This document shows, piece after piece, positions 1,044 to 32,904 of a DNA stretch of 64,000 bases (its first letter is position 1; each line of letters starts with the position of its first letter). A model generated the notes under the pieces. It was not told the origin of the DNA. It made no database searches and was given only the letters and a program-made list of their open reading frames with translations. This DNA is from Vasconcelosia minhoensis LEGE 07310 (GTDB lineage Bacteria; Cyanobacteriota; Cyanobacteriia; Phormidesmidales; Phormidesmidaceae). Made by a program: the position numbers and the translations under genes. The stretch is taken from NCBI RefSeq assembly GCF_015207255.1, contig NZ_JADEXG010000008.1, positions 1 through 64,000 of the forward strand, read 5' to 3'.

Positions 1044-1913
1044 ATGGCTACCGTTTGGGAACTGGACTTTTACTCACGACCGATTTTAGACGAACGCCAG
1101 AAGAAACGCTGGGAAATTCTGATCTGTGAAGGGGCGCAGTCGGTAGACGAGCCGGATCAGCGATTTCGCTACAGCAAGTTTGTTTCCAGCAGCGAGGTCA
1201 ACTCAATTACGCTGAGAGACGCGATCGCGGATGCCCTGACCCAGGCTCCAACTCCGCCTAGCCGGATTCGCTTCTTTCGCTACGCCATGCAGAATATGAT
1301 CGTCCGGGCCTGCGAAGAACTGGGACTACCGGCGAAGATCAGCCGCCGCACGCTGGCCCTACAGCAGTGGCTGGAAGTGCGGCAGCAGCAGGTCTATCCC
1401 CAGCAGCCGGGCTACCAGCCAGGCGGCAATCCTTCCGTCAGCCGTCCGATTGAGGTGTCTAAGCCGCTGCCTGATGCCCTGCAAGGCCAGCAGTGGGCGC
1501 TGGTGACCCTACCAGCCCAGGACTTTGCCGATATGGACGAATGGCCGATTGACTTTGGCGAAGGCTTCCCGCTAGCGCTGGCTGGGATTGATGAGAAAAG
1601 GCCCATTCCAGGATTTATTATTTTCTCTCAGCGAGCCGTGCCTCTGGCGGGTTGGATGTCGGGTCTGGAGCTGGCCTACCTGAAGGCGGAAGGGGGCGCG
1701 CCGGTCAGCGCTGCTCAGCTGCTGCTGGAGACCGGCGCGACCGACACCTGGATTCTGGCCAATTTGGGCACCGCAGAACTCCAGGCTGAGGGCCAGCGAT
1801 TTGAGGCAGCTAAGCAGGCGGCGGGAGGGGTGCATTTTCTGGCCGTGCAGCAGCGTCCCGAGGCTGAGCAGTTCGCCGGGTTTTGGCTGATGCAGGAACG
1901 GGGGTTTGGCTGA
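1044..1913 (+). CDS. Tab2/Atab2 family RNA-binding protein
   Basis: A 289-residue protein that starts 'MATVWELDFYSRPI', the hallmark of the Tab2/Atab2 (DUF1092) family. In Chlamydomonas and Arabidopsis these proteins bind photosystem mRNAs and are needed for translation of photosystem I/II reaction-centre subunits; cyanobacterial members are conserved but little studied. Length is normal for the family. The gene lies 3 bases after the S1-domain gene, and its TGA stop overlaps the ATG of the following ABC permease (TGATG at 1911-1915), so all three reading frames may be translationally coupled. The role in photosystem synthesis is inferred from the plant and algal homologs. Confidence 0.9.
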   Translation: MATVWELDFYSRPILDERQKKRWEILICEGAQSVDEPDQRFRYSKFVSSSEVNSITLRDAIADALTQAPTPPSRIRFFRYAMQNMIVRACEELGLPAKISRRTLALQQWLEVRQQQVYPQQPGYQPGGNPSVSRPIEVSKPLPDALQGQQWALVTLPAQDFADMDEWPIDFGEGFPLALAGIDEKRPIPGFIIFSQRAVPLAGWMSGLELAYLKAEGGAPVSAAQLLLETGATDTWILANLGTAELQAEGQRFEAAKQAAGGVHFLAVQQRPEAEQFAGFWLMQERGFG

Positions 1914-30458: not shown

Positions 30459-30779
30459 ATGCGAGCTAGAATCGACTCCCCCGTTCTTTTCCTCACCTAT
30501 GACGACGTGCCGCCGTACAAAAAGCAGGGGTCGATGGTCAGAAATAGCTACTTCTGGGCGCTGCGCTCAATTGCAGACCGATCGCCCTTTGGCAAAGACT
30601 GGGAATTTGAGGAGCGGGTTTGGCTGGCCCTGACGCGGATGCTGACTGCCTTTGCCGAGTCGGGCTATCTGGGCTACCGAGAGACCGTGCTGGAGTTTCC
30701 GCCAGACGACCCCATTCCGCCAGTGCTAAAGCCGGTCGCAACCTGGCGGGCCGAAGCCCCAGAGGACGAATCGCTTTAG
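30459..30779 (+). CDS. conserved cyanobacterial hypothetical protein
   Basis: A 106-residue soluble protein beginning 'MRARIDSPVLFLTYDDVPPY' and ending with an acidic tail. Aromatic and charged residues ('SYFWALRSIADRSPFGKDWE') suggest a folded small domain. I recognise it only as a conserved hypothetical. It is divergent from the ABC ATPase gene and convergent with the HLIP gene. Confidence 0.7.
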   Translation: MRARIDSPVLFLTYDDVPPYKKQGSMVRNSYFWALRSIADRSPFGKDWEFEERVWLALTRMLTAFAESGYLGYRETVLEFPPDDPIPPVLKPVATWRAEAPEDESL

Positions 30780-30782
30780 AGT

Positions 30783-30805
30783 AAAAAAGGCAGGTCTGGC
30801 CTGCC
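30783..30805 (-). terminator. rho-independent terminator of the HLIP gene
   Basis: On the minus strand the stem GGCAGG-CCAGA-CCTGCC is followed by TTTTTT. It lies 50 bases beyond the HLIP stop. It should also insulate the end of the convergent hypothetical gene. Confidence 0.85.
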
Positions 30806-30855
30806 CTGAGAACGCTTATTTGACTTGACCCCGGGGTCACAGCCGTCGGAACTAA

Positions 30856-30999
30856 CTACATGAGCCCCAGCTGGGATAAAATCCCTTTGCCGGTGACATA
30901 CTCGGTAATCAATCCGGCGACAAACCCGATCATTGCCAGTCGCCCGTTCCAGTTTTCGGCAAACTGGGTGAAGCCAAATTTAGCCTGCTGCTCTTCCAT
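30856..30999 (-). CDS. high-light-inducible protein (HLIP)
   Basis: A 47-residue one-helix member of the light-harvesting-like family. The chlorophyll-binding motif ExxNGRxAMxGF is present as 'ENWNGRLAMIGFVAGL', and the C-terminus is 'GKGILSQLGLM'. Such proteins bind chlorophyll and carotenoid in the thylakoid membrane, protect photosystem II assembly and interact with ferrochelatase or chlorophyll synthase. A GAGGT sequence lies 7-8 bases before ATG. An HLR1-like regulator site is found upstream at 31064-31081. hemJ lies further upstream on the same strand. Confidence 0.95.
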   Translation of the reverse strand: MEEQQAKFGFTQFAENWNGRLAMIGFVAGLITEYVTGKGILSQLGLM

Positions 31000-31063
31000 G
31001 GTAAAACCTCGCTGTACGTTAGATAGTGGGTCGATTGTTAAGGAACTTAAAGCCCTACGCCAG

Positions 31064-31081
31064 AATGTTAACTAATGTAAA
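31064..31081 (-). promoter_or_regulatory. HLR1-like RpaB site upstream of the HLIP gene
   Basis: On the minus strand: TTTACATT, two bases (AG), TTAACATT. The HLR1 consensus (known) is two direct repeats of (G/T)TTACA(T/A)(T/A) separated by two bases, bound by RpaB. The first half matches exactly and the second has one mismatch. The site lies 65-82 bases before the HLIP start codon. Confidence 0.7.
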
Positions 31082-31226
31082 TTGGTTTTGCAACTGCTTT
31101 GTCAGCGCGTCAGGCACCCCGCTGCCCGCCGCGCCGCAGAACGGCGATACTCATCTCAGTCGCCCGGGCATCAACTGAGGCGACGGCGTTGCCCGTTCCG
31201 ATGAATGGGCTGGAGCAAGACTGGCC

Positions 31227-31316
31227 CTATAGCGGCAAGCAGGCCGCGCTCAGACTGAAGGTAAATAGCGCGATCGCAAAAACGGTCCAGAATCGCAGCT
31301 GCTCATCGGGGTTCAA
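31227..31316 (-). CDS. possible 29-aa membrane peptide
   Basis: An ORF between hemJ and the HLIP gene, same strand. It starts at TTG 31316 and reads 'MNPDEQLRFWTVFAIALF' followed by 'TFSLSAACLPL', i.e. a polar head and a single hydrophobic segment. It could be a small thylakoid protein, but the TTG start has only a weak CAGAG sequence ahead of it and the family is not recognised. A chance reading frame in GC-rich DNA is a real possibility. Confidence 0.3.
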   Translation of the reverse strand: MNPDEQLRFWTVFAIALFTFSLSAACLPL

Positions 31317-31340
31317 AGCTCTGATGGGACAAATTGAGCT

Positions 31341-31931
31341 TTAGTTTTGCAGGGCCTGCTGATCTGCGATCGCTGGGGTCTCAGCAGACTGCTCCTGAGC
31401 GAGCCGCCGCTTGCGGGCATAGAGCTGAATAGAGATCACGAAAGACAGCACCAGCCCAGCAATCAGCCAGGTTGTGGCATTCGTTGGCAGATTATTCTTG
31501 AAAATGACCAGCATCACAATCGTCACCAGCAGCAGCGTCGGCGCTTCATTCAAAGCCCGCAGCTGCCGGCTACCCCAGCGGCATTCACCCCTTTCGAGCT
31601 GCTTCCTCAGCCGAGCGCAATACATGTGATAAGCCAACAGCACCACCACCAGCCCAAGCTTGGCATGCATCCAGCCCGCCCTCAACACGTCTGGCATCTG
31701 CACCACTAAGCCAACGGCCATAGCTAGCGTCAGCAGCATTCCCGGCGTAGTAATAATCCGCAAGAGGCGCTTTTCCATTAGCCCATACTGCTGCTTGAGA
31801 ATACTGCGAGCCGGTTCTGGCTCTGCCTCTGCCTCGACGTGGTAGATAAACAGCCGAACCAGGTAGAACAGTCCGGCGAACCAAACCACCACGCCAATAA
31901 TGTGAAAAGATTTGAACCAGTAGTAAGCCAT
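31341..31931 (-). CDS. hemJ: protoporphyrinogen oxidase HemJ
   Basis: A 196-residue membrane protein with four to five helices that oxidises protoporphyrinogen IX to protoporphyrin IX in cyanobacteria. It starts 'MAYYWFKSFHIIGVVVWFAG' and includes the family-typical 'GWMHAKLGLVVVLLAYHMYC' (with the conserved His and Lys) and 'RALNEAPTLLLV'. ATG 31931 aligns with known HemJ starts (recalled, slr1790). The adjacent HLIP gene may support tetrapyrrole delivery or protection. Confidence 0.95.
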   Translation of the reverse strand: MAYYWFKSFHIIGVVVWFAGLFYLVRLFIYHVEAEAEPEPARSILKQQYGLMEKRLLRIITTPGMLLTLAMAVGLVVQMPDVLRAGWMHAKLGLVVVLLAYHMYCARLRKQLERGECRWGSRQLRALNEAPTLLLVTIVMLVIFKNNLPTNATTWLIAGLVLSFVISIQLYARKRRLAQEQSAETPAIADQQALQN

Positions 31932-32070
31932 TGTTTGGATTGTTTGGATTGATTGCATAGACCCTATCTATTCTCTAGCAGTCGGTCCACTTTCGTCAGA
32001 AAGGCGTCTGCTTCTTAATTTTTGGTAGCGTAGCGAATGATCCACTGAACTCAAGGAACGGTCCCAAGCG

Positions 32071-32904
32071 ATGCAAGCTGACTGGCAAACTGTGAAGTCC
32101 TATGACGACATTCTCTACTTCAAAGCGGACGGCATAGCCAAAATCGTGCTCAACCGACCCCATAAGCGCAATGCCTTTCGTCCCAAAACCGTGTTTGAAC
32201 TCTACGATGCCTTCAGCAACGCTCGGGAGGATCGGCGCATCGGCGTCGTTTTGCTGACCGGCGCTGGCCCGCATACCGACGGCAAATATGCCTTTTGCTC
32301 CGGTGGAGATCAGACCGTCCGTGGGTCGGCGGGCTATATGGACGACAGCGGTGTGCCCCGGCTCAACGTCCTGGATTTGCAGCGGCTAATTCGCTCCATG
32401 CCAAAGGTCGTGATTGCGCTGGTGGCCGGCTATGCAATCGGCGGCGGACAGGTGCTTCATCTGGTCTGTGACCTGACCATCGCCGCCGACAATGCCATTT
32501 TTGGCCAGACCGGACCCAAGGTCGGCAGCTTTGACGGCGGCTTTGGATCCAGCTATCTGGCTCGCGTCGTCGGCCAGAAGAAGGCGCGCGAGATTTGGTT
32601 CCTCTGCCGTCAGTATGATGCTCAGCAGGCCTTAACGATGGGCTTGGTCAATACCGTTGTGCCCATAGCGCAGCTGGAGGCAGAGGGGGTGCAGTGGGCT
32701 ACGGAAATTTTACAGAAAAGCCCGATCGCCATCCGCTGTCTCAAGTCAGCCTTTAACGCCGACTGTGACGGCCAGGCCGGCCTGCAAGAACTCGCCGGTA
32801 ACGCCACCCTGCTCTACTATCTGACTGAAGAGGGAACTGAGGGCAAACAGGCGTTCTTGGAAAAGCGCCCACCCAATTTTCGGCAGTATCCGTGGCTGCC
32901 TTAA
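32071..32904 (+). CDS. menB: 1,4-dihydroxy-2-naphthoyl-CoA synthase
   Basis: A 277-residue crotonase-fold enzyme that cyclises o-succinylbenzoyl-CoA in phylloquinone (vitamin K1) synthesis, needed for photosystem I. The oxyanion-hole loops are '[13 protein letters not shown]' and '[19 protein letters not shown]'; '[19 protein letters not shown]' is MenB-specific. The C-terminus '[12 protein letters not shown]' is the classic MenB end. It is divergent from hemJ. Confidence 0.97.

Follow-up and report, generated by a model that had tools for sequence, protein, structure and literature searches.

A probable RpaB operator embedded in the predicted core promoter of an HLIP gene of Vasconcelosia minhoensis LEGE 07310

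We analyzed a 64,000-nucleotide stretch of the Vasconcelosia minhoensis LEGE 07310 genome (the whole of which we refer to as the window) and found, upstream of a short HLIP gene, an 18-bp element that we predict to be an RpaB operator (HLR1) lying within the core promoter of that gene, imposing repression in low light and lifted in high light; on the sequence evidence we regard this reading as probable. The promoter would consist of TTGCAA (31093-31088), 17 nt and TAACAT (31070-31065), with the -10 box lying within the downstream half-site of the operator and the other half-site occupying the -35/-10 spacer. Phosphorylated RpaB would bind in low light and block RNA polymerase; in high light, RpaB would be dephosphorylated and/or released, and the HLIP gene would be transcribed. 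We infer the use of this promoter, its transcription start, the binding of RpaB, the sign of its effect and the dependence on light. The features of the locus are listed in Table 1.

Table 1. Predicted features of the HLIP locus, in window positions
Feature	Position	Strand	Basis or remark
HLR1-like candidate RpaB operator, TTTACATTAGTTAACATT	31064..31081	-	15/16 versus consensus
Upstream half-site, TTTACATT	31074..31081	-	8/8; fills the -35/-10 spacer; minority position
Shared half-site, TTAACATT	31064..31071	-	7/8; predicted -10 inside
Second, weak HLR1-like site, TTTAAGTTCCTTAACAAT	31034-31051	-	13/16; between operator and ATG
Predicted -35 hexamer, TTGCAA	31088..31093	-	17 nt before TAACAT; ortholog spacing
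Predicted -10 hexamer, TAACAT	31065..31070	-	TTGC spacing conserved in orthologs
Expected transcription start	31055..31059	-	inferred from the -10, about 7 nt further
Probable ribosome-binding site, GAGG	31007..31010	-	sequence; GAGG before ATG recurs in orthologs
HLIP gene, 47 aa, single-helix chlorophyll-binding type	30856..30999	-	ORF and Pfam PF00504
Terminator-like stem-loop and T run 3' of the HLIP gene	30787..30807	-	1 found, 0.6 expected
hemJ, upstream neighbour on the same strand	31341..31958	-	TIGR00701; hli linkage conserved

The published HLR1 consensus (PMC13421787) comprises two direct KTTACAWW repeats 2 nt apart (KTTACAWW-N2-KTTACAWW). An earlier sequence-only reading had placed an HLR1-like site before this gene, and its coordinates and letters proved exact: minus strand 31081..31064 reads TTTACATT-AG-TTAACATT. 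Also as claimed there, the first half matches at 8/8 positions and the second at 7/8 (A for T at its third base), and the distance holds, with 64 bases separating the site from the HLIP start codon (30999..30997), such that it covers the 65th to the 82nd base upstream. This is the highest score for the full consensus anywhere in the window (15/16; the runner-up reaches 13/16), and TTWACANNNNTTWACA with at most one mismatch has its sole window match here (0.20 expected; at least one match in 18 of 100 shuffled windows). When the 131-nt region upstream of the HLIP gene was dinucleotide-shuffled, 15/16 was reached on either strand in 3 of 5000 shuffles. Across the 5.26-Mb genome, TTWACANNNNTTWACA occurs six times (versus two for a reversed control pattern), and on this scale the HLR1 motif by itself is weak evidence; the case for the site is made because it is placed before an HLIP gene and is conserved.

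The identity of the gene derives from a Pfam match (PF00504, 24.0 bits against a cut-off of 22.3) and from the Chloroa_b-bind family motif AENWNGRLAMIGF in a short protein; a search of the 47-residue sequence against NCBIfam assigned no family. The gene is probably transcribed alone. Beyond hemJ lies menB, in the opposite direction, and in relatives hemJ, often with menB as well, likewise adjoins hli (for example L008, L010, L012, L014, L015, L023, L027, L031, L046 and L047), and the compared hli loci are therefore positional orthologs. The hli-hemJ-menB linkage (30856-32904 in the window) is kept across several genera, joining a light-protection gene with genes of tetrapyrrole and quinone synthesis. 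Past the HLIP gene a convergent 106-aa ORF (30459-30779, plus strand) has no Pfam or NCBIfam match, and relatives of it about 70% identical lie near hli in several genomes. HLIP-like matches were found in all 59 genomes searched, this one included; six further HLIP-like loci of the same genome have no HLR1 of at least 14/16 within 400 nt, and in one of them, L039, an HLR1-like site of 13/16 stands at -107.

Placed side by side, the related hli upstream regions exhibit AAATRTTGCA and, after it, a TTAACATT-like hexamer. We counted the distance between the two without imposing a preferred spacing (103 of 119 rows kept) and found TTGC 16-18 nt before the hexamer in 62 of the 103 regions (16 nt in 11, 17 nt in 41 and 18 nt in 10), compared with about 0.07 per spacing in shuffles. 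A spacing of 17 nt is that of a sigma-70-type promoter, and because of this fit we read TTGC and the hexamer as -35 and -10 elements. MAFFT aligns the TTGCAA and TAACAT of the window with those of the relatives, the window row being free of gaps. A scan with the sigma-70 consensus found no promoter at the site, because both hexamers depart from that consensus (each 4/6). Given the core TTGCAA-N17-TAACAT, the -10 box falls inside the second HLR1 half-site, and with a start about 7 nt past TAACAT the element would span about -23 to -6. This conserved core, absent from the sequence-only reading, is what puts the site on the predicted promoter itself.

That reading had proposed conservation upstream of orthologs as a check, and such conservation was found: a same-strand site scoring 13/16 or better stands at -45 to -98 relative to the ATG in 19 of 29 related loci. 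Among 43 hli loci from the genome searches (window included; six loci outside the family), scores of at least 14/16 occur at 14 on the same strand, at one on the other strand and at 0.1 in shuffles. The wider set combined the genome searches with related contigs (80 kept of 586 relatives found), and over the full 104 hli loci the counts are 22 on the same strand versus 18 on the opposite one at 14/16 (0.5 in shuffles) and 52 versus 43 at 13/16; beyond the family, HLR1-like sites show hardly any preference for the same strand. The opposite-strand signal is mostly an inverted HLR1-like element that keeps a single offset and runs into the -35 in 24 of 79 anchored promoters (defined below); the window lacks this element (5/16). 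In hli upstream regions outside the family (L089-L168; for example L160, L133 and L142), this opposite-strand element ends in the TTGC of the -35 (WWTGTAAMNNAATRTTGC). Within the comparison, the closest protein relative (L008) has a weak second half-site (4/8), a downstream partner half-site of at least 6/8 is present in 40 of 88 anchored promoters, and about half are without a clear second half-site; the -10 box itself may be part of the conservation observed. A second group of the family, the KFGFV-type hli loci (for example L057, L059, L063 and L075), carries a different, near-palindromic, GTTACGTTAAGTAACA-like motif 110 nt upstream, and its upstream regions have no evident TTGC core.

To compare the placement of half-sites we anchored the promoters on their cores, allowing spacers of 16-18 nt and favouring 17; after removal of duplicates, 88 of 106 loci remained, and those whose -10 scored 4 or more, 79 in all, were profiled. 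In the 78 promoters other than that of the window, half-site scores have one maximum at the -10 and another exactly 10 bp downstream, where 24% have a half-site of at least 7/8 (no other offset between -22 and +22, 0 apart, exceeds 12%). The window instead scores 8/8 at 10 bp upstream of its -10 half-site and 2/8 at 10 bp downstream. Whole sites of at least 13/16 are found in the downstream register in 26 of the 79 (offsets 21-23) and in the upstream register in five (offset 12): the window itself (L007, 15/16), L085 and L100 (14 each), and L015 and L166 (13 each). The idea that the upstream register is exclusive to the window is thereby rejected. L085, from the sister genus g13 (tree, 98/90), is counted in both registers; in that genus HLR1-like sites are present, with a -35 and a register that are ambiguous by eye. 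The register of the window is thus a minority arrangement, one helix turn from that of most relatives with both halves. Identity over the next 30 nt in 14 relatives favoured neither alignment when a 10-bp deletion of the HLR1 was compared with turnover of the partner at a fixed -10.

A pattern search of 388 genomes found the upstream arrangement in four, the window among them, and the downstream arrangement in 16 (17 places), with no matches to either control. The three upstream places outside the window lie before an unknown 77-aa ORF (a 57-aa stretch of which has no Pfam match), 185 nt before another ORF, which looks like a possible DEAD-box helicase, and at a place with no evident gene. Nine of the 17 downstream places are family hli promoters from the compared set; L223 and L224 precede proteins with an HLIP-like motif, L218 and L219 resemble coding sequence, and L220, L221, L222 and L234 have no clear gene.

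The position of the element relative to the transcription start determines the expected sign of its effect. In published work, HLR1 at -66 to -45 goes with activation in low light and at -38 to +23 with repression (PMC13421787), and scp genes have theirs 3-13 bp ahead of the start, within the core promoter (PMC6331805). At scp/hli promoters, bound RpaB is described as blocking polymerase until high light releases it; putative HLR1 elements near HLIP starts are reported for Acaryochloris. The element sits on the predicted core promoter, where published HLR1 sites go with repression, and RpaB should therefore repress in low light and high light de-repress. The sequence-only reading had called the position sensible and expected high-light activation. 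The site does lie upstream of the HLIP gene, but it is the distance to the transcription start, not to the ATG, that matters; and high-light induction stands as the predicted outcome, but not with RpaB as the activator, since a site on the TTGCAA-N17-TAACAT core points to repression. Were transcription instead to begin some 20 nt before the ATG, the HLR1 would fall at about -62 to -45, from where a motif of two half-sites could activate in low light, within the published activating range (-66 to -45; PMC13421787). We hold this to be very unlikely: by eye, the orthologs have no conserved -10 between site and ATG, TTGC-N17-TAACAT is conserved on the site itself, and low-light repression of HLIP genes by RpaB is what has been described in the strains studied.

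It is also very unlikely that the likeness to HLR1 reflects a -10 box (TTAACATT) plus chance, with a conserved core promoter free of RpaB control. Many orthologs do keep the -10-like half alone, and over the whole genome HLR1-like sites outnumber the control only slightly (88 sites with at most two mismatches to the full consensus versus 68). Against this, the upstream half-site of the window is an 8/8 match that is no promoter element, KTTACAWW occurs six times in 128,000 window positions, and the other 78 promoters have their second half-site peak at exactly 10 bp. The regulator itself is encoded (L203; 92% identity to the RpaB sequence used as query, with receiver and DNA-binding domains). 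That query has 68 matches in the genome, several of them full-length relatives (the next best at 54% identity), and in PCC 7942 RpaA competes with RpaB for sites that both can use (PMC13421787), which would suit another OmpR-family response regulator using the site, by itself or in competition with RpaB; we judge this very unlikely, given that HLR1 is the defined motif of RpaB and that RpaB is the regulator reported at the hli promoters of PCC 6803 and PCC 7942. An RpaB/HLR1 site before the HLIP gene, the core of the sequence-only reading, is well supported by the consensus, the conservation in orthologs, the encoded RpaB and a scpB HLR1 with the same TTAACAT half, and 31064..31081 is very probably a genuine RpaB operator. 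Elsewhere in the genome, a second site of this form, TTAACATTAGTTAACA, starts 95 nt ahead of the start codon of a gene whose product has an FtsH extracellular domain; ftsH2/ftsH3 are among the RpaB-repressed targets named in PMC13421787. At L005, TTAACATTGCTTTACAAT (1501-1516, minus strand) stands 45 nt ahead of a possible further RpaB target, a 124-aa ORF (MSYIDQFQPPYF...) with no Pfam match in its first 60 residues.

Taken with an RpaB operator in the core promoter, the two registers suggest a conjecture, which we offer tentatively and consider rather doubtful: that RpaB half-sites make up the hli core promoter, one fixed as the -10 and its partner gained or lost by helix-turn steps (upstream in the window, L085 and L100; downstream in most relatives with both halves), with an inverted element running into the -35 in many cyanobacteria outside the family, repression being kept while the register drifts around the polymerase site. 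We recognized no treatment of the half-site register of hli-promoter HLR1 in the literature covered, a body that omits most subscription papers and so does not prove absence. The two registers around one shared half-site would provide a natural test of how RpaB placement affects repression. More generally, the prediction would add a little-studied lineage to those in which RpaB controls HLIP genes, and it suggests a testable rule, namely that a conserved TTGC-N17-TAACAT-like core locates the start and thereby tells predicted HLR1 sites that repress from those that activate.

Among known systems, small-HLIP-gene promoters with HLR1 inside the core, as predicted here, are those of hliA in S. elongatus PCC 7942 and the scp genes of Synechocystis, for which RpaB binding and a light response have been shown, both of which are predicted from sequence in our case. 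The HLR1 of scpB (ssl2542) in Synechocystis sp. PCC 6803, published as TTACAATAGTTAACAT (PMC6331805), equals TTACATTAGTTAACAT here in 15 of 16 letters. The two-half layout, the AG spacer, the TTAACAT second half and the downstream HLIP gene are all shared; the differences are one base in the stretch and the distance to the start codon, listed as -42 there and 65-82 nt here. The Leptolyngbya-like hli promoters (L010, L016, L017, L022 and L024) resemble the window in having a TTGN-N17-TAACAT core with HLR1 across the -10, but their partner half lies downstream of the -10 and that of the window upstream, which displaces the whole two-half site by 10 bp. By its sequence the candidate operator is an ordinary HLR1, nearest that of Synechocystis scpB; what the present locus adds is its place in a conserved predicted core and its shifted register.
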